Shown here one piece after another: positions 3,423-38,698 of a stretch of 44,960 nt of DNA. Source of the stretch: Methylococcaceae bacterium. GTDB lineage: Bacteria; Pseudomonadota; Gammaproteobacteria; Methylococcales; Methylomonadaceae. The position numbers and the translations under genes are program-made. The stretch lies in contig OMIH01000125.1 of the NCBI GenBank assembly GCA_900299045.1, forward strand, positions 1 through 44,960, read 5' to 3'. The notes beneath the pieces are model-generated. The model was not told where the DNA came from. It ran no database searches and saw only the letters and a program-made list of their open reading frames with translations. Positions within the stretch are counted from its first letter, which is position 1. The number at the start of each line of letters is the position of its first letter.

Positions 3423-3442
3423 CAATACGTTAAATGACTTAT
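3423..3442. repeat. CAATACGT half-site repeat, copy B
   Basis: The plus strand reads CAATACGTTAAATGACTTAT. Nineteen of 20 bases match copy A at 2799-2818, and it resembles one arm of the dyads upstream of the urea and amide operons. It overlaps the stop codon of the Com-like gene and lies upstream of the hairpin at 3320-3357. Confidence 0.5.
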
Positions 3443-14987: not shown

Positions 14988-15022
14988 AAATTCTCTTTTT
15001 TTAAATGGTTTCAATCGTTCAT

Positions 15023-16121: not shown

Positions 16122-16135
16122 CATGTCAATGTCTA

Positions 16136-18153: not shown

Positions 18154-18163
18154 ATTTCAAACC

Positions 18164-18466: not shown

Positions 18467-18478
18467 CATTATTTTCCG

Positions 18479-19285: not shown

Positions 19286-19301
19286 TCACTTTTTTCCCAT
19301 G

Positions 19302-20084: not shown

Positions 20085-20090
20085 CGTCCT

Positions 20091-21991: not shown

Positions 21992-22038
21992 GTATCACAT
22001 CCACTAACTATTTATTATTGTGTTAATATTCAAAAAAC

Positions 22039-23688
22039 TTAAGAATCCGCTGCTCTGCCCTTTTGAGGGAATAAACCGCGTGGACGTTTTTGGATAAATA
22101 AAATGATAAAAATAAGTACTAAAATTTTAGCGAGTACCGCGCCAGCAAAAGGCTCTAAGAATTTATTAGCAATACCTAATGAAAAACCAGCTACTAACGT
22201 ACCGAGTAAATTTCCCACTCCACCAAACACCACCACCATAAACGAATCAACAATATAAGCTTGCCCCAAATTAGGTCCCACGTTAGTAATTTGACTTAGC
22301 GCAACACCAGCAACACCAGCAATGCCTGAGCCAAGCCCAAACGTCATTGCATCGACGCTATCTGTAGGAATGCCCATGGCTTTTGCCATATTGCGATTTT
22401 GCGCTACTGCACGAACTTCAAGGCCAAGGCGGGTATGTCTGAGAATTTGTAAAAGCAACACAAATACCATCAAGCAAAATACCAAAATGTAAAAACGGTT
22501 CCATGTAAGCGACAAAAAATCATTAATTTGCCATGAGCCACTCATCCATTCTGGCGTCGCTACACTGCGATTAAGCGGAGAAAAAATGGAGCGTACACTT
22601 TGCTGAAGTACTAAACTAACCCCAAACGTGGCAAGTAGCGTTTCAAGTGGGCGACCGTAGAGAAAACGAATAATACCGCGCTCGATAATAATGCCCGCAA
22701 GACCAGAAATCACAAACGCAGCGGGAATGGATAAAAACAACGACACACCTAAATGATTAGGTAGTAACTGTTGCATAACATAAGTGGTATAAGCACCGAG
22801 CATCATCAATTCACCATGCGCCATATTAATCACACCCATTACGCCAAACGTAATCGCAAGACCAATCGCCGCAAGCACAAGCACCGCACCTAAACTCAGT
22901 CCAAAAAAGACCGTTTCAATCGTGCTGTAAAATTGCAAACGACTATTAATTTTCACTAAAGCGACTTTTGCTAAATTACGAACCTCTGCGTCGCTTTCAA
23001 GGTAATTGCCATTGTCATCTTTTTCAATCATCACATTTAAACGATTGACGACATCAATACTGTTTACTTCTTTGAGTTTATCAATTGCCGCAATACGCAA
23101 CGCTTTATCGCTGCTATTCATCTCTTTTAAGAGAAAAATAGTGTCAATGGCTTGCTTCACATTACTCTCTTTCTCAATATCAGCACGTTTATGAAGCAAG
23201 GCTAACGCATTTTCATCGTCGTCACTCCCCATTGCTTTCACTGCAGCTAAACGAATGACAGGATCTTGCGCATTTAATTCTAATTGACCAATCGTTTTTC
23301 GGAGTGATACACGCAAGTTATTGGTTAAGTTGATTTTTGTCACGTCGCTACGTTCAATGCTATCAAGCTTAATGCCGCTGACGGCATCTGATATATCATA
23401 GCCATGATGATTATCCTCGCCGATCACGAGTTGATTACCTGATTTTAACGTGAATAATTTGCCGTCAAGTAAGGCGCGTAAAATGGGTAAACTGCGCTCA
23501 CTTTGAATTTCTGAGAGTTGTGCGATAGCGTGTTCACGATCGTTGATTGCGCCTTGCTGAAGATCGTGTAGCGCGTCAAATAAAGGTTGCTGCGCGGTTG
23601 GATTCTCCGCAGCATGAACACAAAATGAGAAAACTAGCAAAAAAAATGCTGTTAAAAGGTAATCTGTTTTCAATGAATTCACTTTCAC
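22039..23688 (-). CDS. urtB: Urea ABC transporter permease UrtB, with periplasmic N-terminal extension
   Basis: The 549-residue protein combines a signal-like segment (YLLTAFFLLVFSFCVHA), about 220 periplasmic residues with HEAT-like helical repeats (AVKAMGSDDDENALALLHKRA) and a LivH-type permease domain from about residue 258 (FGLSLGAVLVLAAIGLAITFGVMGVINMAHGE). This long form is usual for proteobacterial UrtB. The GTG at 23688 follows GGAGAGCAA; the more distal ATG at 23757 would place the first codons inside the strong hairpin at 23725-23757 and has no binding site, so I prefer the GTG. Confidence 0.9.
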   Translation of the reverse strand: MKVNSLKTDYLLTAFFLLVFSFCVHAAENPTAQQPLFDALHDLQQGAINDREHAIAQLSEIQSERSLPILRALLDGKLFTLKSGNQLVIGEDNHHGYDISDAVSGIKLDSIERSDVTKINLTNNLRVSLRKTIGQLELNAQDPVIRLAAVKAMGSDDDENALALLHKRADIEKESNVKQAIDTIFLLKEMNSSDKALRIAAIDKLKEVNSIDVVNRLNVMIEKDDNGNYLESDAEVRNLAKVALVKINSRLQFYSTIETVFFGLSLGAVLVLAAIGLAITFGVMGVINMAHGELMMLGAYTTYVMQQLLPNHLGVSLFLSIPAAFVISGLAGIIIERGIIRFLYGRPLETLLATFGVSLVLQQSVRSIFSPLNRSVATPEWMSGSWQINDFLSLTWNRFYILVFCLMVFVLLLQILRHTRLGLEVRAVAQNRNMAKAMGIPTDSVDAMTFGLGSGIAGVAGVALSQITNVGPNLGQAYIVDSFMVVVFGGVGNLLGTLVAGFSLGIANKFLEPFAGAVLAKILVLIFIILFIQKRPRGLFPQKGRAADS

Positions 23689-23724
23689 TTGCTCTCCAAG
23701 GGACGTAGTAGGCAAACTGAACAA

Positions 23725-23757
23725 GTGCAACAACCTTAATATATAAGATTGTTGCAC
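23725..23757 (-). promoter_or_regulatory. Strong stem-loop in the urtA-urtB gap
   Basis: The 14-bp arms GTGCAACAACCTTA and TAAGATTGTTGCAC (23725-23738 with 23744-23757, one mismatch) surround a 5-base loop, ATATA. The hairpin starts 30 nt after the urtA stop. There is no T-tract, so it is more likely an mRNA-stabilising or partial-attenuation structure that raises binding-protein expression above the membrane components. An analogous hairpin follows the amide-binding protein gene. Confidence 0.65.
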
Positions 23758-23786
23758 CTTATCAAATAAAGAAGTTAAGGTTTAAC

Positions 23787-25085
23787 TTAGTAAGTTTGAC
23801 CTGAACACTTTTTAGTTTTTGTATTGAAATTTCCGCAGTTAATGGGTGCTGTCCAATCAGCAATAATCGGTTTGCTTTCTGGTAAGAAATCAGACCACGC
23901 ATCGCCATCTACTAGTTTATTCGTTTGCCATACGGTCATTAACTGACCATCGTCTTGAATTTCACCAATAAGAACGGGTTTGCTAATATGATGATTTGGC
24001 AACATTTTTGACATACCGCCAGTCAAGTTGGGATATTCCACGCCAATAATGGCTTTTTGAACAGCAGTCGCGTCAGTTGTACCTGCTTTCTCAACGGCTT
24101 TGACCCACATATTAAAGCCGATGTAATGCGCTTCCATTGGATCGTTTGTGGTACGTTTTGGATTTTTGGTGTATTCGTGCCATTGATTGATAAACGCTGC
24201 ATTTTTGGTGCTATCAACACTCATAAAATAGTTCCAAGCCGCTAAATGACCAACTAAAGGCTTGGTATCCATGCCAGACAATTCTTCTTCACCAACAGAG
24301 AACGCAATCACTGGAATTTTTTCAGCTGAAATACCTTGGTTTCCAAGCTCTTTGTAGAAAGGAATGTTCGCATCACCATTGATAGTCGATACGACAGCCG
24401 TTTTTTTGCCAGTTGAACCAAATTTTTTGATGTCAGCAACAATACTTTGCCAATCAGAGTGACCAAAAGGCGTATAATTAATCATGATATCTTTAGACGC
24501 AACGCCTTTTGATTTCAAATAGGCTTCCAAAATTTTGTTGGTAGTGCGTGGATAAACGTAGTCAGTACCCGCTAATACCCAACGCTGTACCTTCAAATCA
24601 TTCATCAAATAATCAACCGCTGGAATGGCTTGTTGATTTGGCGCAGCACCGGTGTAGAAAACATTTTTAGAGGATTCTTCACCTTCGTATTGCACTGGGT
24701 AGAAAAGTAAACCATTTAATTCTTCAATCACAGGAAGAACAGATTTACGCGATACCGATGTCCAGCAACCGAAAATGGCAGATACTTTATCTTTGGTAAT
24801 TAATTCACGCGCTTTTTCAGCAAAAAGTGGCCAGTTTGAAGCAGGATCAACAACCACCGCTTCCAATTTTTTACCAAGTAAGCCGCCTTTTTTGTTTTGT
24901 TCATCGATAAGCATCAACATGGTGTCTTTAAGCGTTGTTTCGCTAATCGCCATCGTGCCAGAAAGTGAATGTAGAACGCCCACTTTAATAGTATCTTCTT
25001 CAGCAAACGCTGAACCAAACAACACAGTTGAAAGCACCGTTGTTAACGCAAGTTTGCGTAAAGGATTTGAAAATTTCATTGTCAT
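23787..25085 (-). CDS. urtA: Urea ABC transporter substrate-binding protein UrtA
   Basis: This 432-residue periplasmic protein captures urea for the UrtBCDE importer. A signal peptide is clear (MTMKFSNPLRKLALTTVLS, then VLFGSAFAEE). The mature start IKVGVLHSLSGTMAISE and the segment FGCWTSVSRKSVLPVIEELNGLLFYPVQYEGEE are characteristic of UrtA/FmdD-type binding proteins. The start ATG follows GGAACTTAATT. It sits second in the operon after the porin gene (29-nt gap). It is a paralogue of the binding protein at 30408-31658. Confidence 0.94.
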   Translation of the reverse strand: MTMKFSNPLRKLALTTVLSTVLFGSAFAEEDTIKVGVLHSLSGTMAISETTLKDTMLMLIDEQNKKGGLLGKKLEAVVVDPASNWPLFAEKARELITKDKVSAIFGCWTSVSRKSVLPVIEELNGLLFYPVQYEGEESSKNVFYTGAAPNQQAIPAVDYLMNDLKVQRWVLAGTDYVYPRTTNKILEAYLKSKGVASKDIMINYTPFGHSDWQSIVADIKKFGSTGKKTAVVSTINGDANIPFYKELGNQGISAEKIPVIAFSVGEEELSGMDTKPLVGHLAAWNYFMSVDSTKNAAFINQWHEYTKNPKRTTNDPMEAHYIGFNMWVKAVEKAGTTDATAVQKAIIGVEYPNLTGGMSKMLPNHHISKPVLIGEIQDDGQLMTVWQTNKLVDGDAWSDFLPESKPIIADWTAPINCGNFNTKTKKCSGQTY

Positions 25086-25114
25086 AATTAAGTTCCGTTA
25101 TCGTAAATGATTAA

Positions 25115-26350
25115 TTAAATTTGCATTTGGAAGCCGAGTGTCAAGGCATGTGAACTTGTACCTGCGACATCAGAGCCGAAGTTTAAATTACCTTTGGTCA
25201 AACCATCGCCATATTGATAAATTAATGATACTCTCGCGTTGTGACCATCAATAATGTAATTCAAGCCACCTTCATAAATATTACGATTAGTACTATTAAC
25301 TGGCATAATATTGACGTAACGAACATAAGGTTGAAATTGACCAATACCCACTTTACCGGGAATTAAATACATGCCACTTGCATCGTAAGCATCGCCTTCA
25401 AACATACCAAAGCCTTTGCTTTGATCGTAAGCGACAGACCCTTTAGAAATACCATAGTTTTTATATTCACCATTAACAGTGATTACACCCATATTATTTG
25501 CTAAGGGTTTTTCATATAAAACGTCTACGGCAGTTCCACGGAAACTGCCGTTACCTAGTACACCTGCACCATCTTCTTGGTACTGATTAGATACACCTAC
25601 AGTTAAAATATTTCCGCCTTTACCATAGTAAGTGCCTGATGTGTAGTAACCTGGATTTTTTTCAACATCAAGGATGTTATAAGACACGCGCTGTGCATAA
25701 AGAATATTATTATCTCTATTTGCACCTCCTGCTAAACCACGGAAGAAACCAGCAACGTATTGCAAGTGCCCATCTAAAACAGAACCCCAAATATTTACAC
25801 CGTCATCACGACCAATGGCACCCGCTGATGATCCGTTATTATATGTACGAACGTTATAGTCTGATGGTTCGAATGGCGTGCCACCTGAGAAAATACTGTA
25901 TGTAGCACTATAAAAAGGACCATTTAATTCACGACGCTCTGCAGGTACCAATTGACGACCTAACCAAACGTTAAAATAGGGTGTAATTTCGAATTTTGAA
26001 ATTGCATCAAGCACGAACATGTGACCACCATTACTACCAGTACATGGAAAACATTCAGTGTTTAATTCAAATTTAATATATTTATGAACTTGACCGTTTA
26101 CATATAGACGAGCATTGTCAAGATTGAAATTATTGCTCCATTTTTGCGTTTCTGCATTACCTGCTGCAGCTTCTTGCGCTGTGAAACTCGAACGGATACC
26201 AGCGCCTAAACTGATCCACTTAGTATCGTCAATTTTAAATGTTGCCCCAGCAAATGAATCCGACGCATAGCCAAGCGAACGCGTTGAAAGTGCTGCTACA
26301 CATAAGACGCGAGCAAAACGCCCGCTTGAAACTTGTTTGATAGTACTCAT
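25115..26350 (-). CDS. fmdC: Outer-membrane porin, FmdC-like
   Basis: The 411-residue predicted beta-barrel has a signal peptide (start MSTIKQVSSGRFARVLCVAA, likely cleavage after LGYA) and many alternating beta strands ending LTLGFQMQI. The end deviates slightly from the usual terminal aromatic residue. The pattern (DDTKWISLGAGIRSSFTAQE; FNLDNARLYVNGQVHKYIKFELNTE) resembles porins beside urea and amide transporters, such as Methylophilus FmdC, which are thought to pass short amides and urea. A CFPC pair in a loop could form a disulphide. It is the first gene of the urea operon; the ATG follows AAGGGGACTCTCTA, and a shared regulatory dyad lies 114-151 nt upstream. Confidence 0.75.
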   Translation of the reverse strand: MSTIKQVSSGRFARVLCVAALSTRSLGYASDSFAGATFKIDDTKWISLGAGIRSSFTAQEAAAGNAETQKWSNNFNLDNARLYVNGQVHKYIKFELNTECFPCTGSNGGHMFVLDAISKFEITPYFNVWLGRQLVPAERRELNGPFYSATYSIFSGGTPFEPSDYNVRTYNNGSSAGAIGRDDGVNIWGSVLDGHLQYVAGFFRGLAGGANRDNNILYAQRVSYNILDVEKNPGYYTSGTYYGKGGNILTVGVSNQYQEDGAGVLGNGSFRGTAVDVLYEKPLANNMGVITVNGEYKNYGISKGSVAYDQSKGFGMFEGDAYDASGMYLIPGKVGIGQFQPYVRYVNIMPVNSTNRNIYEGGLNYIIDGHNARVSLIYQYGDGLTKGNLNFGSDVAGTSSHALTLGFQMQI

Positions 26351-26435: not shown

Positions 26436-26501
26436 TCATTTTTAAATTTGTAGCACTTTCGCACAATACGTCAAATAACCCATTAGTTATTTAACGTATT
26501 G
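26436..26501 (-). promoter_or_regulatory. Shared control region of the urea operon: inverted repeat plus conserved box
   Basis: Arms CAATACGTCAAATAAC and GTTATTTAACGTATTG (26464-26479 with 26486-26501, one mismatch) flank a CCATTA spacer. Reading toward the porin gene there follows CTACAAATTTAAAAATGA (26453-26436). The same architecture, with 16 of 18 box bases identical, occurs upstream of fmdA at 33489-33553. It probably binds a dimeric regulator. The rest of the 397-base gap (26351-26747) holds a small CCAC-TTC-GTGG hairpin, the terminator at 26663-26692 and no gene. Confidence 0.65.
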
Positions 26502-26747: not shown

Positions 26748-27437
26748 TCACACTGACAAATAACCCTTAATTTTTTCTGCATCGACATCTTCACGAAGGT
26801 CTTCGTGAATAAATCTTCCTTTATCAATAACGATAATACGATCCGCTACGGCCATCGTAAAACTCAGTACTTGCTCAGACACAATAATGGTAATTTCTCG
26901 CATTTTGCGAATATCATTGAGCACATTAGCAATGTCTTTGATAATTGACGGCTGAATGCCTTCAGTAGGCTCATCAAGCAATAAAACTTTAGGATTGGTC
27001 ACAAGTGCGCGAGCGATAGCAAGCTGTTGTTGCTGTCCACCAGATAGATTACCGCCTTTGCGTTTGCGCATATCGTAGAGAACAGGAAACAACGCGTAAA
27101 TATCTTCGGGGATTTCACTCGACGTTGAATTTTCGAGTCCTGTTTCAATATTTTCTTGAACAGTCATTGCTGGAAAAATCATCCGACCTTGTGGTACATA
27201 CGCCAAGCCTTTTGCCACGCGTTGATAAGTCTGTATCTCGTTGACACTATCGCCATCAATTTCAGCTTTAGTAGCGTGACTTGGCAAAATGCCCATCAAT
27301 GATTTAAAGAGAGTCGTTTTTCCCATGCCATTGCGCCCCATAATGGCGAGCGTTTCATTTTTTTCTGCTTTAAAACTCAGTCCATGAATGACTTCACTTT
27401 GACCGTAACTCACATGCAAATCAACTACTTCAAACAT
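26748..27437 (-). CDS. Short-chain amide ABC transporter ATP-binding protein (UrtE-like)
   Basis: This 229-residue ATPase is the last gene of the amide operon. It has Walker A GRNGMGKTT, signature LSGGQQQQLAIARAL and Walker B VLLLDEPTEGIQPS, and ends IKGYLSV. It is the standard length of the family and lacks the insertion present in the urease-linked UrtE. ATG 27437 follows AAGGAGAATTTTC and gives the family N-terminus MFEVVDLHVSYGQSE; the longer start at 27470 lacks this support. The gene order fmdA-fmdB-binding protein-permease-permease-ATPase-ATPase points to amide or urea import rather than amino acids. Confidence 0.88.
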   Translation of the reverse strand: MFEVVDLHVSYGQSEVIHGLSFKAEKNETLAIMGRNGMGKTTLFKSLMGILPSHATKAEIDGDSVNEIQTYQRVAKGLAYVPQGRMIFPAMTVQENIETGLENSTSSEIPEDIYALFPVLYDMRKRKGGNLSGGQQQQLAIARALVTNPKVLLLDEPTEGIQPSIIKDIANVLNDIRKMREITIIVSEQVLSFTMAVADRIIVIDKGRFIHEDLREDVDAEKIKGYLSV

Positions 27438-27476
27438 GAAAATTCTCCTTACCTTTGTGAATTTAAACAACAGTGT

Positions 27477-28220
27477 CTAATGCCCTAAATAAACTTCAAT
27501 AACTTTTTCATTAGCTTGAACTTTTTCCATTGAACCTTCGGCTAGAATTTTACCTTGATGCAGTACAGTTACTTTATGAGCAATTTTTTTCACAAATTCC
27601 ATATCATGTTCAATGACAAGTACCGAACGATTTTGGCAAATTTGATTGAGGAGTTCTGCAGTCTGATCACGCTCTTTTGCGCTCATGCCGGCAACAGGTT
27701 CATCAAGCATCAAAAGTTCAGGGTCTTGCATAAGAAGCATACCAATTTCCAGCCATTGCTTTTGTCCGTGACTGAGTAGCGCAGCTTCTAAATCTAAATG
27801 CTCAGTGAGTAACACTTCAGCCGCAATTTTCCTCACTTGTGCACTTAATTCTGATGTACGCTTAAACGTTAAACTCCCCCAAACACTTCGCCCAACTGGA
27901 TAGGACACTTCTAAATTTTGATATACGGTTAAATTTTCATAAATAGAGGGTGTTTGAAATTTACGTCCAACGCCAGCACGAACAATTTCGTGTTCAGATA
28001 AGGTAGTCATTTCAATATTTTTGAATTTGATTGAGCCCTCTGTCGATTTTGTTTTGCCGCAAATTAAATCTAAAACAGTAGTTTTTCCCGCTCCATTGGG
28101 TCCAATCACGACACGTAATTCGTTTTTATCGATGTACATTGACAGCGAATCGACCGCTTTGAATCCATCAAATGAAACGGTTAAATCTTCAATCGCCAAA
28201 ATAAAGTCCGTGTTACTCAT
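27477..28220 (-). CDS. Short-chain amide ABC transporter ATP-binding protein (UrtD-like)
   Basis: The 247-residue ATPase has Walker A GPNGAGKTT, the UrtD-type signature LSHGQKQWLEIGMLL and Walker B LLMLDEPVAGMS. It is paralogous to urtD at 20091-20903 but lacks the N-terminal extension. The start codon overlaps the stop of the upstream permease by 4 nt (ATGA). It works with the adjacent UrtE-like ATPase on the two permeases. Confidence 0.88.
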   Translation of the reverse strand: MSNTDFILAIEDLTVSFDGFKAVDSLSMYIDKNELRVVIGPNGAGKTTVLDLICGKTKSTEGSIKFKNIEMTTLSEHEIVRAGVGRKFQTPSIYENLTVYQNLEVSYPVGRSVWGSLTFKRTSELSAQVRKIAAEVLLTEHLDLEAALLSHGQKQWLEIGMLLMQDPELLMLDEPVAGMSAKERDQTAELLNQICQNRSVLVIEHDMEFVKKIAHKVTVLHQGKILAEGSMEKVQANEKVIEVYLGH

Positions 28221-29362
28221 ACTTTATCTCCTAGCATGTTGGGATCTTTTTTTAAGAATTTGGTATAACGTGCAATCAACCAATCTGCTATATTGAAGTT
28301 TTTAGCATGATCACGATAAACCCCCGCCAGTCCATCTGGGAAGAACATCACCACGGCAATAAATAAGCCGCCCATTAAAAACAACCATAATTCAGGAAAG
28401 TTTTCAGAAAACATGGTTTTGCCAAAATTCACCAGTAACGCACCATAAACTGCGCCAATTAAGGACATTCGCCCACCCACTGCAGCAAAAATGACCATTT
28501 CAATTGACGGAACAATACCCACAAAACTTGGTGACATAAAACCAATTTGCAGCGTAAACATTGCGCCACCTATCGCTGAAATCATCGCGGCAAAGCAAAA
28601 AATAAAGATTTTAAAACTCGAAACGTCATAGCCTGAAAAACGTACACGCTCTTCTTTATCACGCATAGCAAGCAGCAACATGCCAAATTTTGACGAGAGT
28701 ACATAATTGCTCAATATAATGACGCCAATGAGCAAACTAGCATTGATAAAATATAAAACATATTTCGCGCTATCGGTTCGAATATCCCAACCTAGCAGAG
28801 TTTTTAAATCCGTAATACCGTTTACGCCACCGGTATAGCCTTGTTGACCCACAATTAAAATGCTCAAAATGAGTGCAATGGCTTGCGTGATAATAGCGAA
28901 ATACACACCACCCACGCGACGCTTAAACATGGCGTAGCCAATAATAAATGCTAAAAAAGTCGGAACCGCTAGCACAAAAAATACAGTTAAAGGGAAACTT
29001 TTAAATGGCAGCCAAAACCAAGGAATTTCAGTAAGTTGATTCCAATCCATAAAATCGGGAATGCCGGGCGTAGTTTGAATCTTGGTACTAATGGGATCTG
29101 ACGCTTCAAGTTTTAAAAACATCGCCATGCAGTAGCCGCCAAGACCAAAGAACATCCCCTGCCCCAAACTTAAAATCCCCCCATTCCCCCAAAGCAAAAC
29201 AAGGCTGACGGCAACAAACGCATAAGTGACATACTTGCCAATGAGTCCCAAGCGAAATAAATCCAGCCACAGCGGGAAAATAACCAGCAGTAAAATCGCT
29301 AATATCGCTAAATTTATGGCGCCCTGTTTTCCACCAAAATATTTATTTAAAAATACGGTCAT
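28217..29362 (-). CDS. fmdF: Short-chain amide ABC transporter permease (UrtC/LivM-like)
   Basis: The 381-residue inner-membrane permease has family blocks LVLLWGNGGILSLGQGMFFGLGGYCMAMFLK, ITQAIALILS and the cytoplasmic loop AMRDKEERVRFSGYDVSSFK. It is a close structural counterpart of urtC. ATG 29362 follows GAGGGCGTT and leaves a 10-nt gap after the upstream permease; a start at 29395 would overlap that gene. The name fmdF is assigned by analogy with the Methylophilus methylotrophus amide cluster and is tentative. Confidence 0.85.
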   Translation of the reverse strand: MTVFLNKYFGGKQGAINLAILAILLLVIFPLWLDLFRLGLIGKYVTYAFVAVSLVLLWGNGGILSLGQGMFFGLGGYCMAMFLKLEASDPISTKIQTTPGIPDFMDWNQLTEIPWFWLPFKSFPLTVFFVLAVPTFLAFIIGYAMFKRRVGGVYFAIITQAIALILSILIVGQQGYTGGVNGITDLKTLLGWDIRTDSAKYVLYFINASLLIGVIILSNYVLSSKFGMLLLAMRDKEERVRFSGYDVSSFKIFIFCFAAMISAIGGAMFTLQIGFMSPSFVGIVPSIEMVIFAAVGGRMSLIGAVYGALLVNFGKTMFSENFPELWLFLMGGLFIAVVMFFPDGLAGVYRDHAKNFNIADWLIARYTKFLKKDPNMLGDKV

Positions 29363-29372
29363 AACGCCCTCA

Positions 29373-30290
29373 CTATTTACGCACTTTTGAGGCAAACAAC
29401 CCTTCTGGACGCATCATTAAAATAATGACAATGGTCATCAAGGTAGACACTTTGCCCATTGAACTGGTCATGAAAAATTGCAAAATAGACTGCGCTTGGG
29501 CAATCCCAAATGCCGAGGCAATCGTTCCCATTAAACTTGCCGCACCACCAAACACCACTACCATAAAGCTATCAACAATGTAGAGTGAGCCGGTTGTTGG
29601 ACCTGTTGAGGCAATCGTTGTAAAAGCCGCGCCCGCAACACCTGCAATACCACAACCTAACGCAAACGTTAATCGATCGACTTTTTGCGTATTAATACCC
29701 ACCGCGCCAGCCATCATACGATTTTGCACCGTCGCGCGAATACGCAAACCACCGCGTGAGCGAAACATAAATAAATACACTCCAACCGTGACAATTAACG
29801 CTAATCCCATTACGAAAACGCCATTGATAGGAATATCAATATCAGGCGTGGGTTTAAAGGAACCAAGTAACCATTCAGGTAACTCAGCACTCACTTCTTT
29901 TGCACCAAACGTTGAGCGAAAAATTTGCTGCATCACCAAACTCAGACCCCACGTTGCAAGGAGCGTATCAAGCGGGCGTTTATAAAGATGCCGAATTAGC
30001 GCATACTCCACAAAATACCCAATAAAGAAAGCCAATATAAATGCAGCAATAATGGCAAAAATAAAGTATGAATTGACGATATCAAATTCAACGGCCATTT
30101 TAGATAAAAACACAGTGGTATACGCTCCCACTGTCATGAATTCACCATGAGCCATATTAATCACGCCCATTTGACCAAAAATAATTGCAAGACCCAGCGC
30201 CATTAGCAGCAATACACTAAATAAACTCAGCCCCGAAAAACCCTGCATGACGACAATATTGCCCACGTCTTCCATCGAATAGCCAAACAT
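29373..30290 (-). CDS. fmdE: Short-chain amide ABC transporter permease (UrtB/LivH-like)
   Basis: This 305-residue permease lacks the long periplasmic N-terminal domain of urtB. Markers are LLLMALGLAIIFGQMGVINMAHGEFMTVGAY, YKRPLDTLLATWGLSLVMQQ and SLYIVDSFMVVVFGGAASLMGT. ATG 30290 follows GGAGAAAGGCT; in-frame starts further upstream reach 30308 without a better site. The name is tentative, by analogy with the Methylophilus fmd cluster. Confidence 0.86.
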   Translation of the reverse strand: MFGYSMEDVGNIVVMQGFSGLSLFSVLLLMALGLAIIFGQMGVINMAHGEFMTVGAYTTVFLSKMAVEFDIVNSYFIFAIIAAFILAFFIGYFVEYALIRHLYKRPLDTLLATWGLSLVMQQIFRSTFGAKEVSAELPEWLLGSFKPTPDIDIPINGVFVMGLALIVTVGVYLFMFRSRGGLRIRATVQNRMMAGAVGINTQKVDRLTFALGCGIAGVAGAAFTTIASTGPTTGSLYIVDSFMVVVFGGAASLMGTIASAFGIAQAQSILQFFMTSSMGKVSTLMTIVIILMMRPEGLFASKVRK

Positions 30291-30351
30291 AGCCTTTCTC
30301 CACATCACGCAAATTAACGTAAATCTTTCTAAAAAAATCAGTTACCTTTGC

Positions 30352-30376
30352 AGCGCAGACCGAAAACTTCTGCGCT
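30352..30376 (-). promoter_or_regulatory. Stem-loop after the amide-binding protein gene
   Basis: The 8-bp perfect stem AGCGCAGA / TCTGCGCT (30352-30359 with 30369-30376) has a 9-base loop and lies in the 117-nt gap between the binding-protein stop and the permease start. No T-tract follows. The position mirrors the hairpin in the urtA-urtB gap. Confidence 0.55.
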
Positions 30377-30407
30377 ACAAATAACGCTATACAGTTAACG
30401 ATATGGC

Positions 30408-31658
30408 TTATTGATAGCCTTTTGGAAATGGATCTGGATTGATTAATCCTGATTCATAAACCATATCGGCTTGACCATCTTTGCGCCATTGACCAATACG
30501 CAATTTGCTAAGTAAATGGTGATTTGGATCGACTTTGACATAGCCTTCAGGTGCGGTAGTTAATTCATAACCGGGAAGCGCAGCAACCGCTTTATCTACA
30601 TCAAAGCTGCCCGCACGCTCAACCGCTGCTTTCCAAAGCCAAGGACCCAAATACGCCGCTTGTGTTACGTCACCAATAACAGCTTTTTCGCCATAAGCTT
30701 TTTTGAATTCAGCTACGAATTTGTCGTTATTGGAATTTTTCAAACTTTGGAAATATTTCATTGCAGAATAGAAACCTTCCAAGTTTTCACCGCCAATACC
30801 AAGCACTTCGTCTTCAGTAACTGAAATAGTGAGCATATTTTGTTTTTTCGCATTTAAGCCCGCTGCATTTAACTGTTTGAACCAAGCTACATTACTGCCG
30901 CCAACTACCGCTGCGTAAATCACATCCGGTTTTTCGAGCTTAATTTTATTGATGACTGAACCAAACTGCGTATCACCTAAAGCAACATATTCTTCACCAA
31001 CAACCGTGCCGCCTAAATGCTGCTCAATATGCTTACGCGCAATCTTCATTGATGTGCGCGGCCAAATATAATCAGAACCAATTAAATAAAACGTTTTTGC
31101 TTTTTTCTCTTTAGCAATCCAATCTAAACCCGCCAAAATTTGTTGCGTAGCTTCTTGACCGGTATAAAAAACGTTTTTCGACTGTTCAAGCCCTTCATAA
31201 AAGGTGGGATAGAAAAGTAAGCCGTTATCTTTCTCGAAAACAGGTAGCGCTGCTTTACGTGAAGCCGACGTCCAGCAACCAAAGACGGCGGCTACTTTGT
31301 CATTCTCAAGTAATTTCTTCGATTTCTCCGCAAAAGTTGGCCAATCACTTGCGCCATCTTCTTGAATCACTTCAATCTTGCGACCAAGTACACCGCCCGC
31401 TTCATTGATTTGAGCAATAGCGAGCTTTTCCGCTTGGATTGAACCCGTTTCACTAATCGCCATGGTGCCCGTTGCCGAGTGAAGAATACCCACTTTGACC
31501 ACATCATCCGTAACAGAAAGTCCTGTTGTATTCACTTTTGCAGTTGGAAAATCCCCCGCGACGGAGGTATCCACATAAATTGGGAGACTCAAAGCCAGTG
31601 ACAGGGCACTCAGCACCATTGACTTTTTCACAAATTGATTTTTATCAATATTACTCAT
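30408..31658 (-). CDS. fmdD: Short-chain amide/urea ABC transporter substrate-binding protein (FmdD/UrtA-like)
   Basis: The 416-residue periplasmic binding protein has a long signal peptide (about 34 residues, likely cleavage after TSVAG or nearby). The mature region opens VVKVGILHSATGTMAISETG and shares FGCWTSASRKAALPVFEKDNGLLFYPTFYEG with UrtA. It is clearly paralogous to urtA in this window. Position between fmdB and the permeases, and linkage to formamidase, favour formamide or acetamide as ligand, though urea cannot be excluded. Confidence 0.88.
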   Translation of the reverse strand: MSNIDKNQFVKKSMVLSALSLALSLPIYVDTSVAGDFPTAKVNTTGLSVTDDVVKVGILHSATGTMAISETGSIQAEKLAIAQINEAGGVLGRKIEVIQEDGASDWPTFAEKSKKLLENDKVAAVFGCWTSASRKAALPVFEKDNGLLFYPTFYEGLEQSKNVFYTGQEATQQILAGLDWIAKEKKAKTFYLIGSDYIWPRTSMKIARKHIEQHLGGTVVGEEYVALGDTQFGSVINKIKLEKPDVIYAAVVGGSNVAWFKQLNAAGLNAKKQNMLTISVTEDEVLGIGGENLEGFYSAMKYFQSLKNSNNDKFVAEFKKAYGEKAVIGDVTQAAYLGPWLWKAAVERAGSFDVDKAVAALPGYELTTAPEGYVKVDPNHHLLSKLRIGQWRKDGQADMVYESGLINPDPFPKGYQ

Positions 31659-31736
31659 CTTTTTCCCCTAAATTAAACAAAAAAATATGGCACTTTGATG
31701 TGTAAAAAAATCACACCTTTAACAACGAATTACAAA

Positions 31737-32081
31737 CTAATGACTCAACATCCAAGGTCTTGCTGTTTTCTTTGTTTGCATTTGATAACCAGTAGACTGA
31801 TTGCTCGTTGATTTGACACTATTGCTAGTTTTACAAGTGTGTCCCCCCATGCTGCAACCACAACTTGAGCGACGCATCGATACAGGCTCATGCGCTGATT
31901 TTTCGTTGCGCTCATAAGCAATGCGCTGAGATTGCCCCACCAAAGCAAAATGCGGGGCAGATATAATGCGCGGACTTTCACCACCGCAATGATTACAAAC
32001 AGCAGGCAGTTTAGCGTCGGCTATTTTTCGCAATGCTGAAAACGTGCCGCAGGCATCGCAGTGATATTCATATAAAGGCAT
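31737..32081 (-). CDS. fmdB: FmdB family zinc-ribbon protein
   Basis: The 114-residue protein begins MPLYEYHCDACG and continues to CNHCGG, forming the CxxC...CxxC zinc ribbon that defines the FmdB/CxxC_CxxC_SSSS family. A second Cys-rich patch (CGCSMGGHTC) follows near residue 75-85 and the tail is polar. In Methylophilus methylotrophus, FmdB was described as a regulator of the amide operon, but the exact function is unproven. ATG 32081 follows GGGAGTTTAATTG. It sits between fmdA (27-nt gap) and the binding protein gene. Confidence 0.88.
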   Translation of the reverse strand: MPLYEYHCDACGTFSALRKIADAKLPAVCNHCGGESPRIISAPHFALVGQSQRIAYERNEKSAHEPVSMRRSSCGCSMGGHTCKTSNSVKSTSNQSTGYQMQTKKTARPWMLSH

Positions 32082-32108
32082 CAATTAAACTCCCGTGTGT
32101 TCATCAAA

Positions 32109-33332
32109 TTAACTGGTTTTCGCCATGTCGGTGCCGCTGGCTACGATAATTTTTGGCCCGTCCGCATTGGGTTTTAGGTCAAAGTCGAAAATTTCAGTAG
32201 GTAGCCATAGTGTGGCGCACGCATTTGGAATATCGACCACGCCACTGATATGACCTTCAACAGGTGCCGTTCCCAAAATGGAGAGCGCTTGCTCACCGCT
32301 GTAACCAAATTTTTTAAGATATTCGATCGCATTTAAACAAGCTTGGCGGTAAGCCACGTGTACATCTAAATAATGTTGCGTGCCTTTTTCATCAACGGAA
32401 ATACCTTCAAAAATCAAATAATCACGATAATTCGGTGTTAATGGACTGGGTTGAAAAATCGGATTTTTAATACCGTACTTTTTCACGCCATCTTTAATCA
32501 AACTGACTTTAATATCTAAATAACCCGCCATTTCAATCGCGCCACAGAAGGTAATTTCGCCATCGCCTTGAGAGAAATGCAGGTCACCCATTGATAGTCC
32601 GCCGTCTTTTACATAGACAGGGAAGAAGACTTTTGAGCCTTTGGTGAGATTTTTAATATCACAATTACCGCCATGCTCACGTGGTGGAACGGTACGCGCA
32701 CCTTCTAATGCCGCATTTTTAGCAACATCGCCGGTTAATTTACCCATCACCGCTGATTGCGAATTGGGTGGTAGTGCTAGCGCAGGAACGCGCTCAGGAT
32801 CCGTTGCAATCAAAGTTGCTTCACGCTCATTCCACTGCGCAAGTAATTCTTTTGAAGGCAAGCAACCAATCAATCCGGGGTGCATAATGCCGGCAAATTT
32901 CACATTGGGAACGTGACGAGAAGTGGTGTAGATACCATGGAAGTCCCAGATAGATTTACGCGCTTCAGGATAATGATCGGTTAAAAATCCGCCCCCATTT
33001 TCTTTTGAAAATAACCCATTAAATCCCCATTGCGATTCTTGGAAAGTGCCGACATCTAAAATATCAACGACCATCAAATCACCCGGCTCTGCACCTTCAA
33101 CCCCAATAGGACCACTAAGATAATGAACTTGAGTCAAATCCACATCACGAACATCATTCGCGCTATCGTTGTTACCAATTTGTCCCCCTGTCCAATCCAT
33201 ACACTCAACACGAAATTCATCACCGGGTTTTACCATAGCAACCATAGGGAGATCCGGATGCCACCGATTATGAATTTGCCCCTCTTGCTCCCACGGTTTT
33301 TTATCAAGATCTAATTTAATTAATGTTTTCAT
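32109..33332 (-). CDS. fmdA: Formamidase / acetamidase
   Basis: Hydrolyses formamide (and possibly other short amides) to the acid and ammonia in the cytoplasm. The 407-residue protein is the size of Methylophilus FmdA and shows VHNRWHPD-like QIHNRWHPDLPMVAMVKPGDEF, NDSANDVRDVDL, LSGPIGVEGAEPGDLMVVDIL and the GGNCDIKNLTKGSKVFFPVYV segment of the FmdA_AmdA family. A longer frame opens at 33404, but ATG 33332 (after AAGGCAAAAGAGAA) gives the family N-terminus MKTLIKLDLDKKPW. It heads the amide operon; the shared control region lies at 33489-33553. Confidence 0.94.
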   Translation of the reverse strand: MKTLIKLDLDKKPWEQEGQIHNRWHPDLPMVAMVKPGDEFRVECMDWTGGQIGNNDSANDVRDVDLTQVHYLSGPIGVEGAEPGDLMVVDILDVGTFQESQWGFNGLFSKENGGGFLTDHYPEARKSIWDFHGIYTTSRHVPNVKFAGIMHPGLIGCLPSKELLAQWNEREATLIATDPERVPALALPPNSQSAVMGKLTGDVAKNAALEGARTVPPREHGGNCDIKNLTKGSKVFFPVYVKDGGLSMGDLHFSQGDGEITFCGAIEMAGYLDIKVSLIKDGVKKYGIKNPIFQPSPLTPNYRDYLIFEGISVDEKGTQHYLDVHVAYRQACLNAIEYLKKFGYSGEQALSILGTAPVEGHISGVVDIPNACATLWLPTEIFDFDLKPNADGPKIIVASGTDMAKTS

Positions 33333-33488
33333 TTCTCTTTTGCCTTCATTGTCTAAATTGGACTGCGTAACATCAGTTTTTAAATCTAAACAATATCGTC
33401 TCATAACTTAAAATACGACGATCCTACTTATGATCTAAATCCCATAAATTTCGCCACTAAAATCAGTGTCTAATCAAAGTTGGCAATT

Positions 33489-33553
33489 TCATTTTCAAAT
33501 ATGTAGATATGATTCACAATACGTCACACGACCCATCAGTCATTTGACGTATA
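33489..33553. promoter_or_regulatory. Shared control region between fmdA and the sensor operon
   Basis: An inverted repeat with left arm CAATACGTCACACGAC (from 33517), spacer CCATCA and right arm GTCATTTGACGTAT lies in the divergent intergenic region. Reading toward fmdA it is followed by CTACATATTTGAAAATGA (33506-33489), matching 16 of 18 bases of the box in front of the urea operon. It is 185 nt from the fmdA ATG and about 80 nt from the divergent ATG at 33634, so it could act on both. Confidence 0.65.
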
Positions 33554-33633
33554 ACAGATAAAGTAGACTTTGCGTACAATTTGGAAGCTATCGAAAGATG
33601 AATAAAATTTAGATGATAATTATCGAGGCGTTT

Positions 33634-34395
33634 ATGTATATTCAATTAGGGGTGATTCATTGGCTGACAATGGGATTGATATTGTTCACAACAACCGTTT
33701 TAGCTGACGACAAGCGTGATATGTCTATCCAGTTTACACTTGAAGATTCTCATCTCACTCTCCTAAATTTCGATGCTCCCATACAAAGAATCACCATGCA
33801 AGTGAGTGAAAATTTATCGCAATGGCAATATCCAGTAAGTGTAAATAATCCTCAACCAACTCACAGCCTAAACGCGATTATTGGACGCGTATCAAACCAA
33901 TCAACGCCAACAGGCTTTTCGTTTTCCAGCGGAAATTCCGATCCTCGCTCGGTTGATTTTCAAAAAGCCGATGTTTTTCCCATCAACTGCCAATTAAAAA
34001 CATATTCCAGCAATTTAATTGAATTTGAAAATAAAATGACCTTTACTGCATATCAAACAACTGACGATATCAGCAAAGAAAAAGCGGTAGAAAAACTCAT
34101 TGATCAAATCAGTACTACTTGCTTTAATTTACTTGATGACCATAAAGTGCCAAAAGTAGGTAAAAAAACCGAGAACGATACCACCTTCAAACCAACGTGG
34201 ATGCCAGATATACAAATTGAAGTAAAACAAAAAAATGCGATGCTACCCGCTAAAAAATTAGGTGTTGAAAATATACAAAGTGAAAATGCACTCTCACCTA
34301 CGCGAGAAAGCGACGAAGAAGAAGGCACAAAAGAATTGATTATTCACAATCAAGGCACGCCACTAACCATAAACTTTGGGCACGAACGGCGCTAA
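33634..34395 (+). CDS. Secreted protein of unknown function, first gene of sensor operon
   Basis: I do not recognise a family. The 253-residue product starts with a signal peptide (MYIQLGVIHWLTMGLILFTT, cleavage probably after VLA). About 125 residues follow with beta-rich character and the sentence QRITMQVSENLSQWQYPVSV. Near residue 105 there is DPRSVDFQKADVFPINCQLK, and the C-terminal third is polar and low-complexity. Two cysteines, in INCQL and TTCFNL, could pair. ATG 33634 follows GAGGCGTTT; a start at 33613 lacks this site. It ends 16 nt before the permease-kinase gene, so a periplasmic accessory role in sensing is possible, but this is inferred only from position. Confidence 0.65.
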   Translation: MYIQLGVIHWLTMGLILFTTTVLADDKRDMSIQFTLEDSHLTLLNFDAPIQRITMQVSENLSQWQYPVSVNNPQPTHSLNAIIGRVSNQSTPTGFSFSSGNSDPRSVDFQKADVFPINCQLKTYSSNLIEFENKMTFTAYQTTDDISKEKAVEKLIDQISTTCFNLLDDHKVPKVGKKTENDTTFKPTWMPDIQIEVKQKNAMLPAKKLGVENIQSENALSPTRESDEEEGTKELIIHNQGTPLTINFGHERR

Positions 34396-34410: not shown

Positions 34411-37400
34411 GTGAAAAAACCTATTCATCAAACGATTACAACAGTTCGACGCGACTATAATAGCTTGGTTGCGAGTGAAACAATGGAAGATTATGCGTTG
34501 CGTTTTGCACCGCGTAGTTTTCGTAAATGGTCTGAATTTGATGTCGCAAACACGGCTTTTGGCTCTAGCTCTTTTCTTGTTCTTGAAGCCATAGGTGCCT
34601 TTTTATCAATTAATTACGGTTTTACAAACGCTTTCTGGGCTATAGTTATCGTAGCTGTGGTAATATTTATCACGAGTTTTCCCATTAGTTACTACGCTGC
34701 TCGCTACCACATTGATATTGATTTGCTAACTCGCAGCGCGGGGTTTGGTTATATTGGCTCTACGATTACATCACTTATTTACGCTTCATTCACCTTTACG
34801 CTGTTTGCTCTTGAAGCCTCGATTATGTCGCAGGCTATCGAGCTGTACTTCCAAATATCGCTAGAGAGGGCGTATGTCATTAGCGCCATTATTGTCATTC
34901 CACTAGTGACGTTTGGCATTACCACCATCAGTCGACTGCAATTGTGGACACAACCAATTTGGCTCGTTTTACTTATTACCCCCTACATAGCGATTTTGCT
35001 AGAAGAACCGAGATCTTTACCGCTACTAAACCATTTTTTGCATTTAGCAGTGCATGGCAACGAATTTGATTGGCTATTATTTGGTAGCGCTGCAACGATT
35101 GCCTTTTCAATGATTGCGCAAATTGGCGAACAAGTGGATTTTTTGCGTTTTATGCCCGATCAAACCAAAGAAAATCAGGTAAAATGGTGGATTGCAGTCA
35201 TTGCAGGTGGACCTGGATGGATAATATTTGGTGCAATACGTCAATTACTCGGTGCGTTGCTTGCCCATTTAGCGATCAGTTATGGGATTGATCCTCAACA
35301 CGCGCATGAGCCAACACAACTGTATTTAGTGGCTTACAGTTATGTTTTTGATAACCCACACTGGGCACTTGCAGCGACAACACTCTTTGTGATGTTGAGC
35401 CAAATTAAAATTAATGTAACAAATGCGTATGCAGGCTCATTGGCATGGTCAAATTTCTTTTCTCGCTTAACACATAGTCATCCTGGACGCGTTGCATGGT
35501 TATTCTTTAATGTATTGATTGCATTGCTGTTAATGAAATTTGGTGTTTTTAGTGCGCTCGAAAAAGTACTTGGCTTGTTTTCACACATGTCCATCGCATG
35601 GATTTGTACGCTTGCCGCTGAACTCGCCATCAATAAATCATTAGGGCTTAGTTCGCGTATTATCGAATTTAAACGTGCTTATTTGCCCGACTTAAATCCC
35701 GTGGGTATTTTATCGACTTTTTTTGCCTCGGCTATTTCAATCGCGGCTTATTGCAATCTTTTTGGCGACCAATTGAAAGCCTTTTCGGGATTTGTTGCCG
35801 TCTTCTTAGCCTTTATATTAACGCCACTCATCGCTTACTTTGCACATGGCAAATATAACTTAGCGCGTAACCGTAAAAAAAATAATTCACGATTTAAAAA
35901 CACCTGTGGCATTTGCGAAAATGTCTTTGAGCATGAAGAAATGGCGTATTGCCCCGCTTACAAAAACAACATTTGTTCACTTTGCTGCACGCTCGACGCA
36001 CGTTGCCATGATGTCTGTAAAATTGGGTTTCGTTTTGACGATTATTTAGACATGATGGCAGCGTTTATTTTTCCTAAATCGATGAATTCGCTGACGCGAC
36101 TGCGTTTATTACGCTTTGTGTTGGTATTCTTGTTTTTAGCGACATTAACCGGTATTTTTGTTGGGGTCATCTATTATCAAGACTTGCTTAGTGTGCGCGA
36201 TGAATTGGACACATTTGCATTACTGCTGAATAACTTTTTTAAAATATATTCCGCATTACTTGTATTTATTGGTCTTTGTACATGGTGGTTGATTCTCAAT
36301 TCAGAAAGTCGACGTGTAGCGCATGAAGAAACAGCAAAGCAAACTGAACTACTGCTTAGAGAAATAGACAAGCATAAACAAACTGATGCAAAACTCCAAT
36401 ATGCGATAAAAATGGCTGACCGTGCCAATACTGCAAAAAGTCGTTTTTTGAGTAGCATGAGTCATGAAATTCGCACCCCCCTTAATAGTATTATTGGTTA
36501 TGCGTATATTCTTCAACAAGATCCTGCAATTCCTGAACACCGAAAGCAAGGTATTGATATTTTAAAGCGCAACGGTGAACACTTATCTGCGCTCATTGAA
36601 GATATTTTAGATATTGCTCGCATTGAAGCGCGTAAGTTTGATTTACGAAAAGAACCTATTCATTTCAAACGTTTTCTTGAACATTTAATCAGCACATTCA
36701 AACCACAAGCGCAAAAAAAAGGCTTAGGCTTTCATTGTCAAATTTTAAATACCCTGCCCTCATATATACGCGGTGATGAAAAGCGTGTTGGACAAATTTT
36801 GATTAACTTACTCAGTAACGCGATTAAATTCACTGTAACGGGCGACGTGATATTTCGTATCAGCTATAGTTGCGGCGTCATTACATTTCAAGTTATCGAT
36901 AGTGGTGTGGGGATTGATAAGCACCAGCTACAAAATATTTTTCAACCCTTCACTCAACTCCCTAATGAGAATTTGGGTTCGGGGAGTGGTTTGGGTTTAA
37001 CGATTAGTAAAATTTTATGTGAAATTATGGGCGGAGAACTCGTTGTAAAAAGCGACGTCAATAAAGGCTCAACATTTACGGTACGTTTATTATTACCCAA
37101 CTTAGGCATCGAAGAACATTCTGTTAAGCAAGAAGAAATCATTGGTTACAGAGGAAAACGAAAATTGCTTCTTGTTGTCGATGATAATGCAGATCATCGC
37201 ATACTCGTGACGTCTATTTTAGAACCACTGGGATTTCGCGTGATGCAAGCAGCTTGTGGGGAAGATTGCCTTCGTTTTATGGAAAAAAATACGGTTGATC
37301 TAATTCTGCTTGATTTATCTATGCCTGGTTTAGGTGGAATCAAAACTGCAGAAACACTACGCCAACGTAATAACTCAACACCTATTATCGTACTCAGTGC

Positions 37401-37779
37401 AAACGCCTATCCAGCAGATCGTTTACAAGCAATCAATGCAGGTTGTAATGATTTCTTAATTAAACCATTAACCGTTGTCGATTTACTCTATAAATTAAAA
37501 TTTCATTTAGATATCAAATGGATTTATAGCGAAGAAGACACTCCAGTGCTTGATATGATAACACCACCACAAAATATTATTTTAGAATTAGAAAGTTATA
37601 TACGTATTGGTGATTTAGCGAGTTTAAAACGCTATCTTGCCACTTTTATAAAAACACACCCACAATATCAACATTTTGCAGAAGATATACAATCACTTGC
37701 AACCGAGTTTCGTTTAAATGATATTAAACAACGTCTACAATTTGCCCAAAAGGAATTAACCAAAAATGACCGCGAATAA
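34411..37779 (+). CDS. NCS1 permease-like sensor hybrid histidine kinase
   Basis: The 1122-residue fusion starts at a GTG. Residues 30-490 form a complete NCS1 (purine/cytosine/allantoin permease) fold of about twelve helices (EFDVANTAFGSSSFLVLEAIG). Residues 499-536 hold eight cysteines (Cys499, 502, 514, 522, 525, 526, 532, 536), suggesting a zinc or other metal cluster. Two more helices (about 570-640) and a coiled linker lead to HisKA with His685 (SMSHEIRTPLN), HATPase (NLLSNAIKF; GSGSGLGLTIS) and a receiver with Asp968 (LILLDLSMPG), then about 75 residues. It overlaps the next gene by 14 nt. It likely senses a nitrogen compound or its transport and controls the adjacent amide and urea genes; ligand and target are inference. 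Confidence 0.9.
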   Translation: MKKPIHQTITTVRRDYNSLVASETMEDYALRFAPRSFRKWSEFDVANTAFGSSSFLVLEAIGAFLSINYGFTNAFWAIVIVAVVIFITSFPISYYAARYHIDIDLLTRSAGFGYIGSTITSLIYASFTFTLFALEASIMSQAIELYFQISLERAYVISAIIVIPLVTFGITTISRLQLWTQPIWLVLLITPYIAILLEEPRSLPLLNHFLHLAVHGNEFDWLLFGSAATIAFSMIAQIGEQVDFLRFMPDQTKENQVKWWIAVIAGGPGWIIFGAIRQLLGALLAHLAISYGIDPQHAHEPTQLYLVAYSYVFDNPHWALAATTLFVMLSQIKINVTNAYAGSLAWSNFFSRLTHSHPGRVAWLFFNVLIALLLMKFGVFSALEKVLGLFSHMSIAWICTLAAELAINKSLGLSSRIIEFKRAYLPDLNPVGILSTFFASAISIAAYCNLFGDQLKAFSGFVAVFLAFILTPLIAYFAHGKYNLARNRKKNNSRFKNTCGICENVFEHEEMAYCPAYKNNICSLCCTLDARCHDVCKIGFRFDDYLDMMAAFIFPKSMNSLTRLRLLRFVLVFLFLATLTGIFVGVIYYQDLLSVRDELDTFALLLNNFFKIYSALLVFIGLCTWWLILNSESRRVAHEETAKQTELLLREIDKHKQTDAKLQYAIKMADRANTAKSRFLSSMSHEIRTPLNSIIGYAYILQQDPAIPEHRKQGIDILKRNGEHLSALIEDILDIARIEARKFDLRKEPIHFKRFLEHLISTFKPQAQKKGLGFHCQILNTLPSYIRGDEKRVGQILINLLSNAIKFTVTGDVIFRISYSCGVITFQVIDSGVGIDKHQLQNIFQPFTQLPNENLGSGSGLGLTISKILCEIMGGELVVKSDVNKGSTFTVRLLLPNLGIEEHSVKQEEIIGYRGKRKLLLVVDDNADHRILVTSILEPLGFRVMQAACGEDCLRFMEKNTVDLILLDLSMPGLGGIKTAETLRQRNNSTPIIVLSANAYPADRLQAINAGCNDFLIKPLTVVDLLYKLKFHLDIKWIYSEEDTPVLDMITPPQNIILELESYIRIGDLASLKRYLATFIKTHPQYQHFAEDIQSLATEFRLNDIKQRLQFAQKELTKNDRE

Positions 37780-38698
37780 AGGCATTATTATGATTGTCGA
37801 TGATACGCCCGATAATTTGGCGCTACTTTCGGATACATTATCTGAGGCGGGTTATCGCGTTCTTGTGGCAACAGATGGGTTGTCTGCGTTAGAACAAATC
37901 AACTATCTCAAGCCCGATATTATTTTACTTGATGTCATGATGCCAGGCATTGACGGTTTTGAAACTTGCCAGCGCTTAAAATCCAATCCAAGTACTCATG
38001 CCATTCCAATTTTATTTATGACAGCGCTAAGTGAACTCGATCATCTACTGCGCGGATTCAATGAGGGGGCAGTGGATTATTTAGTAAAACCTATTCGCCC
38101 CCCAGAAGTACTCGTACGCGTTGATGTACAACTAACTCAAATGCGTACACTTCAACGTGCCGAAGAAGTGTTAAACCGTCGTGAATTTTCTGCATTAGCC
38201 ATTAATAAAACATGTCAAATAACGTGGCTTACACCTAGTGGCACTGTATGGCTAAATGAGTTTACAAATACGCATTCCCTCCCAGCCGCAGATTATAGCG
38301 TCGGTAAATTTTTGCCGGCGCCTATTTTTGATTGGGCAAGCGTTTATTTAAACGATCAGCACATATCACCGACAGCGCATTTTGAAAGTTATCGTGCAGG
38401 ATTTGAATTTTCTTGCAAAATTATGCCATGCGAATATGGTGAAGAATATATGTTGATCTTTGAAAAGAAGTCGGGAGAATGGAATGTAGATGCGGTACGT
38501 CATTTACTTGGTCTTACCGTTCGAGAAACTGAAATTTTGATGTGGATTTCACGCGGAAAAACGAATAAAGAAATGGGAGTCATTTTAGGATCCAGTCCTC
38601 GTACTATTAATAAACATCTCGAACATATTTTTGAAAAATTAGGTGTAACAACAAGAACCGCAGCCGTTTCAGCCGTTTTGCAAAAACAAATAAATTAG
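37766..38698 (+). CDS. LuxR/NarL-type response regulator
   Basis: The 310-residue regulator has a receiver domain (acidic pair Asp12-Asp13, phosphoacceptor Asp56 in ILLDVMMPGIDG, Thr in FMTALSE, Lys in YLVKPIRPPEV), a PAS-like middle region (about 140-240) and a C-terminal LuxR helix-turn-helix (LTVRETEILMWISRGKTNKEM; SSPRTINKHLEHIFEKLGV). The start lies inside the 3-prime end of the hybrid kinase gene, so the two are translationally coupled and form a cognate pair. The inverted repeats upstream of fmdA and the urea operon are plausible binding sites for a dimer of this protein. Confidence 0.92.
   Translation: MTANKGIIMIVDDTPDNLALLSDTLSEAGYRVLVATDGLSALEQINYLKPDIILLDVMMPGIDGFETCQRLKSNPSTHAIPILFMTALSELDHLLRGFNEGAVDYLVKPIRPPEVLVRVDVQLTQMRTLQRAEEVLNRREFSALAINKTCQITWLTPSGTVWLNEFTNTHSLPAADYSVGKFLPAPIFDWASVYLNDQHISPTAHFESYRAGFEFSCKIMPCEYGEEYMLIFEKKSGEWNVDAVRHLLGLTVRETEILMWISRGKTNKEMGVILGSSPRTINKHLEHIFEKLGVTTRTAAVSAVLQKQIN

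Follow-up and report, generated by a model that had tools for sequence, protein, structure and literature searches.

The window analysed here, a 44,960-nucleotide stretch of a Methylococcaceae bacterium (positions 1 to 44,960 of contig OMIH01000125.1, assembly GCA_900299045.1), encodes a hybrid sensor histidine kinase with a permease-like N-terminal membrane domain, followed by its partner response regulator. The kinase is probably the sensor in a two-component system of the transceptor type that is dedicated to urea and short-chain amides. The two genes and the parts of the kinase are arranged as follows.

34411 to 37779, plus strand: NCS1-type hybrid sensor histidine kinase gene; open reading frame (ORF) of 1122 amino acids (aa) with a GTG start (Pfam, Foldseek, profile, hhalign)
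34528 to 35850, plus strand: NCS1/LeuT-fold permease domain, residues about 40-480 (Foldseek to CodB and Mhp1, profile match to CodB, hhalign)
35905 to 36018, plus strand: eight-cysteine module, C499-C536; predicted β-hairpin and helix, zinc-finger-like (AlphaFold2, Foldseek)
36088 to 36315, plus strand: two additional transmembrane (TM) helices, residues about 560-635, between the cysteine module and the kinase (AlphaFold2 model, hydropathy)
36433 to 37095, plus strand: HisKA (His685 at 36463-36465) and HATPase_c (Pfam)
37171 to 37494, plus strand: C-terminal receiver, phospho-acceptor Asp968 at 37312-37314 (Pfam Response_reg)
37766 to 38698, plus strand: partner response regulator gene; ORF of 310 aa, receiver (Asp56) and LuxR/NarL-type helix-turn-helix (Pfam)

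A transporter-fold domain and a complete kinase core share one chain, which makes the protein a transporter-histidine kinase fusion. The first-pass annotation had described this chain correctly: the NCS1 transporter-like domain is recovered by Foldseek, profile and hhalign in agreement, though Pfam misses it; the eight-cysteine cluster does lie between transporter and kinase; the extra helices ahead of the kinase appear as two hydropathy peaks (residues 569-587 and 602-630); and the histidine kinase and receiver match HisKA, HATPase_c and Response_reg. His685 is kept in every sensor long enough to include it. The kinase stop and the regulator start overlap by 14 bp, in keeping with the coupling to a LuxR-type regulator that had been proposed, and the regulator, with Response_reg and GerE domains (Pfam) and Asp56 in 125/125, is of the NarL/LuxR type. 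A sensor variant without the receiver (885-894 aa, NCS1-Cys-TM-HK) occurs near fmdA and fmdB at two loci (L150, L151). Methylotuvimicrobium-type genomes (loci L028 and L029, and L221 and L224) carry two paralogous NCS1 kinases in one genome, one of them Methylococcales-type.

The NCS1 identity of the membrane domain required independent proof, because residues 1-490 matched no Pfam family, with no hit to PF02133 even at E<=10 and so none at the Pfam gathering threshold, and no relative in the Protein Data Bank (PDB) by single-sequence search; PF02133 also matched in 0/61 related genomes. Pfam/NCBIfam as the sole NCS1 test was thus negative, and comparisons of fold and profile took its place. 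A model of residues 1-679, built with AlphaFold2 from 59 homologues (mean pLDDT, the model's per-residue confidence score, 76.5), found its best Foldseek matches in CodB (E 5.6e-9) and Mhp1 (E 6.9e-9), above SLC5, Nramp and APC folds, and the kinase had no Pfam match to either the SLC5 (SSS) domain or the STAC linker. The domain profile matched CodB alone (1.4e-8) when run against the entire PDB set, and an hhalign comparison with four bona fide NCS1 permeases returned a probability of 99.5%. The domain is a divergent, NCS1-derived one: of the known structures, those of NCS1 permeases resemble it most in fold and profile. Among stand-alone permeases the closest (31% identity; TIGR00800, E 2.5e-16), which has no cysteine module, adjoins a nitrilase and a UrtA/AmiC-type (amide/urea-type) binding protein. 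A 4-residue insertion in TM6 was considered as a sensor signature; it was seen against CodB and stand-alone permeases, vanished against the Mhp1-like L175, and was dropped because it is alignment-dependent.

The ion and substrate positions of 141 sensors were compared with those of Mhp1, using residue correspondences from hhalign and Mhp1 numbering checked against the PDB sequence. Mhp1 S312 and T313, its side-chain Na+ ligands, are replaced by K333 (141/141) and I334 (140/141), and the presence of a basic side chain in the sodium site points to a lack of Na+ coupling. W117 and W220, which form the aromatic substrate clamp of Mhp1, correspond to L/F131 and V/I/M235, Q121 corresponds to an invariant E135, and the TM8 asparagine N318 is kept as the invariant N338. 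Mhp1 and CodB therefore have their fold, a detectable profile similarity and the TM8 Asn in common with the sensor domain, but lack a kinase, and neither the Na+ site nor the clamp of Mhp1 is retained in the sensors. On balance, these replacements argue for a receptor without Na+-coupled transport, and the loss of the clamp would suit a compound of smaller size than nucleobases or hydantoins. The ligand first suggested was a purine, hydantoin or allantoin, as in classical NCS1 permeases, a view consistent with the substrates of the nearest solved relatives, CodB (cytosine) and Mhp1 (hydantoin), and with the annotation of a truncated Moraxella copy as 'allantoin permease'. It is very improbable, since both stacking tryptophans have given way to aliphatic residues or Phe, and the annotated neighbours include no such genes but those for urea and short-chain amides. 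Urea or an amide is instead a reasonably probable ligand, judged from these residues and neighbours.

The eight cysteines of the module (C499, C502, C514, C522, C525, C526, C532 and C536; spacing Cx2C-x11-C-x7-Cx2CC-x5-C-x3-C) are invariant in 141/141 homologous sensors, as are the Ile, Ser and Leu of the ICSLCC core, and a profile of the module, searched in 249 genomes, matched inside NCS1 kinases only. Modelled alone from 107 sequences (AlphaFold2), the module forms a β-hairpin followed by a helix (pLDDT 67.5), and its Foldseek list consists mostly of PHD, RING, FYVE, LIM and ZZ zinc fingers, each non-significant (best E 0.26). A zinc module is likely, and we read it as a structural element, probably cytoplasmic and probably with two zincs, that has TM12 before it and the two extra helices after it. 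Eight invariant cysteines in a module found nowhere else could also be expected if the module itself were the sensor, a redox, Fe-S or metal switch gating the kinase; the predicted hairpin and helix, the mostly zinc-finger-type fold list and gene neighbourhoods without a redox or metal theme make this improbable. Of the metal or redox role initially suggested for the cysteines, metal binding is plausible, probably by a structural zinc, given the predicted fold and the invariance; redox sensing found no support.

The genes around the kinase-regulator pair, and the predicted operators between them, are as follows.

33613 to 34395, plus strand: orf260, first gene of the orf260-kinase-regulator operon; 260 aa, signal-peptide-like N terminus, no Pfam family
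33520 to 33551, unstranded: tandem pair of 16-bp 7-2-7 inverted repeats, TACGTCACACGACCCA and TCAGTCATTTGACGTA; predicted operator common to the fmd and orf260-kinase-regulator operons
32109 to 33404, minus strand: fmdA, formamidase (NF045496 match); true start probably 33332, not 33404, because the formamidase model starts at ORF residue 25
26748 to 32084, minus strand: fmdB-like zinc ribbon gene and amide/urea-type ABC transporter (two permeases, two ATPases)
30408 to 31658, minus strand: substrate-binding protein of this transporter
26467 to 26498, unstranded: second tandem pair, TACGTCAAATAACCCA and TTAGTTATTTAACGTA, 117 bp upstream of the porin-urtABCDE-urease operon
14370 to 26350, minus strand: porin-urtABCDE-urease region; other urease accessory ORFs assigned by position only
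25115 to 26350, minus strand: porin (porin-like by search)
19302 to 25085, minus strand: urtABCDE (UrtA-E matches)
16136 to 17839, minus strand: ureC, within the urease genes (ureC match)

The kinase had been read as divergent from fmdA across a shared dyad; the dyad is present (33519-33552, between orf260 and fmdA), but the first divergent gene is orf260, not the kinase. An Rfam match to the 5' ureB sRNA (91 bits, 17404-17686) lies antisense within ureC and is probably conserved coding sequence rather than RNA.

NarL-type regulators use 7-2-7 inverted repeats. A motif search of 67 non-redundant intergenic regions, started from the window dyad, gave the consensus TACGTCA-N2-TGACGTA in divergent promoter regions. 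The commonest exact dyads were TACGTC-4-GACGTA (12 regions) and ACGTCA-2-TGACGT (9), compared with 1-2 regions for the best shuffled dyad, and the best site scored at least 11/14 in 47/69 intergenic regions versus 0.6% of shuffled regions. Methylococcales regions contain two abutting copies, and porin-urt operons in other genomes are preceded by the same tandem arrangement. In 2.44 Mb of loci, 82 sites reach 12/14 or better. Of these, 79 stand immediately before a porin, urtA, fmdD, fmdA, orf260 or kinase gene, and three fall at gene starts that were probably mis-called; the p-value of this placement overstates its significance because the loci are not independent. Where porin-urt operons are remote from the kinase (14 methanotroph genomes), 13/14 keep the site, the exception being cut by a contig end. 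The sites co-vary with the regulator, whose recognition helix resembles VNKHLEHIF where the sites are TACGTCA and V[DNT]KHLEQIY where they are TACGCA. The second, diverged NCS1 kinase of the Methylotuvimicrobium-type genomes is divergent from an fmd-type ABC operon and has a perfect TACGTCATTTGACGTA site. The window has two further sites, TACGTTATATGACTTA and TACGTTAAATGACTTA (2802-2817 and 3426-3441, 12/14 each), in 2.2 kb of gene-poor sequence that precedes an ATP-grasp/Alpha-E/proteasome-like (Anbu-type) operon. Judging by the short ORFs and terminator-like hairpins close by, a small gene or an RNA may be under the same control as the urea regulon.

The sensor family was first found in Methylococcales and Burkholderiales. 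In a phylum-wide sample of 398 Pseudomonadota genomes, with the neighbourhood set at 10 kb, 55 genomes match the sensor profile and 52 (about 13%) have the permease domain in usable form. All 54 assessable loci have fmd (formamidase/amide-ABC), urt or urease genes in the neighbourhood, two other loci ending at contig edges, and the regulator gene adjoins the kinase in 54/56. A UrtA-type protein is encoded in 51/52 sensor genomes compared with 118/346 others (Fisher p 2e-20), and urtA occurs elsewhere in the genome in all 14 tested cases of a kinase remote from urt. The possibility that homologues never lie near nitrogen genes is strongly contradicted by these loci. The first-pass proposal of a transceptor-type sensor with a link to nitrogen compounds is supported, with the range of compounds narrowed to urea and short-chain amides. 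It is very likely, from such genomic comparisons, that the system controls urea and amide genes.

What the NCS1 domain senses is a separate matter. The same genes could be controlled in response to a general cue, such as membrane energetics, ammonium or nitrogen status, which would be in keeping with one sensor family serving fmd, urt and urease clusters, and with host operons made up of nitrogen-scavenging genes, usually under nitrogen-limitation control. We consider a general cue unlikely, given the invariant E135 and N338 at the substrate position; in addition, the genes linked to the sensors are those for urea and amides and not nitrogen genes at large, and a specific cue is therefore favoured. 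Amide and urea labels are clustered on the sensor tree (10 changes versus 25 in shuffles). Separate ligands were not assigned to sensor clades, because both types occur.

The gene orf260, whose product has no Pfam family, precedes the kinase in many Methylococcales loci and was seen in Methylococcales loci only. In other Methylococcales, where the kinase is elsewhere, it remains with urt, divergent from the porin-urt operon. A role as a kinase accessory protein was rejected because orf260 stays beside urt when the kinase moves; it is probably a periplasmic part of urea/amide uptake. These observations bear on a model in which the ligand would be brought by UrtA/FmdD binding proteins or Orf260, with the NCS1 domain acting as a receptor for docking. 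The frequent position of a urea/amide binding protein gene as the first across the shared promoter, and that of orf260 ahead of the kinase, would fit such docking, but the fact that orf260 was seen in no loci outside Methylococcales, its association with urt and several urease-only loci with no binding protein nearby render it quite improbable.

Homologues are also plasmid-borne, being found in 525 PLSDB plasmid records, 342 of them from Klebsiella. On plasmid CP024500 (L181, 4903-15258; Klebsiella IncFII/IncFIB plasmids) the order is amiF-urtE-D-C-B-A, then a divergent hybrid kinase and regulator, with a 13/14 operator, while in Burkholderia pBVIE02 the kinase and regulator are divergent from amide ABC genes and formamidase. 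A Moraxella osloensis plasmid (L182, 7971-9614) encodes the 548-aa NCS1 part that carries the allantoin permease annotation; it adjoins fmdA, has an IS5 transposase just downstream and looks like a truncated sensor. Existing annotations of such kinases are generic (hybrid sensor histidine kinase, ATP-binding protein, ArcB).

In the mechanism proposed for a dedicated urea/amide sensor, the NCS1-permease-derived domain would bind, and perhaps transport, a small amide-type solute, and its conformational state would reach the DHp helices by way of the cytoplasmic linker with eight cysteines, probably stabilised by zinc, and the two extra helices. Autophosphorylation of the kinase at His685 would follow, from which phosphate would pass to Asp56 of the neighbouring NarL-type regulator. 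The regulator would bind TACGTCA-N2-TGACGTA sites before the fmd and porin-urtABCDE-urease operons and switch both, activation being assumed. Several points weigh against this interpretation. The signal could be nitrogen status instead of the solute. About ten well-flanked Methylococcales loci have no urea genes within 10 kb, though urtA was present at another place in all 14 such genomes tested. In the case of the operator, 22/69 intergenic regions have no site of at least 11/14, some carrying the TACGCA variant and others none that was recognised, and the co-variation of operator and recognition helix is confounded by taxonomy. The fold matches of the cysteine module are individually non-significant, E 0.26 at best on a model of pLDDT 67.5.

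Transporter-kinase fusions are already known. CbrA, CrbS (MxtR) and RpuS likewise join a histidine kinase to an N-terminal domain of transporter fold, have a cognate regulator and control uptake or utilisation genes, CrbS also being a hybrid, but theirs is an SLC5 domain with a helical STAC linker and carbon substrates (histidine, acetate, pyruvate), in place of NCS1 with an eight-cysteine module and two helices (PMC13022988, PMC7918813, PMC5715377, PMC9100948). In Ks-Amt5, the best-studied example for nitrogen, a nitrogen-compound transporter domain has similarly been recruited as a kinase sensor, one that binds its ligand without translocating it; the fold is Amt, the protein senses ammonium, and it is not described as tied to urea/amide genes (PMC5764959). 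The predicted target operons correspond to the fmd amide operon and the 'UTS' urea transport system of Klebsiella CG307, the two-component system being divergent from both, and the CP024500 gene order fits that system; the K. pneumoniae CG307 paper covers the transporter and formamidase and mentions no histidine kinase or response regulator (PMC13060141). Searches of the open-access literature returned no NCS1-kinase fusion, and the version with this linker and regulon appears undescribed there.

We tentatively suggest that these proteins form a widespread receptor-kinase class. In it, an NCS1 permease would have lost ion coupling (invariant Lys at the sodium site) and would serve as urea/amide receptor, with a bacterial RING/PHD-like zinc module as obligatory coupler to the kinase and a conserved urea/amide regulon that is also carried on Klebsiella plasmids. 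Few transporter-kinase families have been characterised (SLC5-STAC, Amt), and with the sensor another permease family joins them, coupled through a different linker. It occurs in about one in eight of the Pseudomonadota genomes sampled, and also on common plasmids of Klebsiella, where the kinase-regulator genes adjoin a urea-transport system whose control the CG307 paper does not describe (PMC13060141). The system offers a proposal for how bacteria may control the scavenging of urea and amides, naming a specific class of ligand, an operator of 16 bp and a regulon that can be tested.

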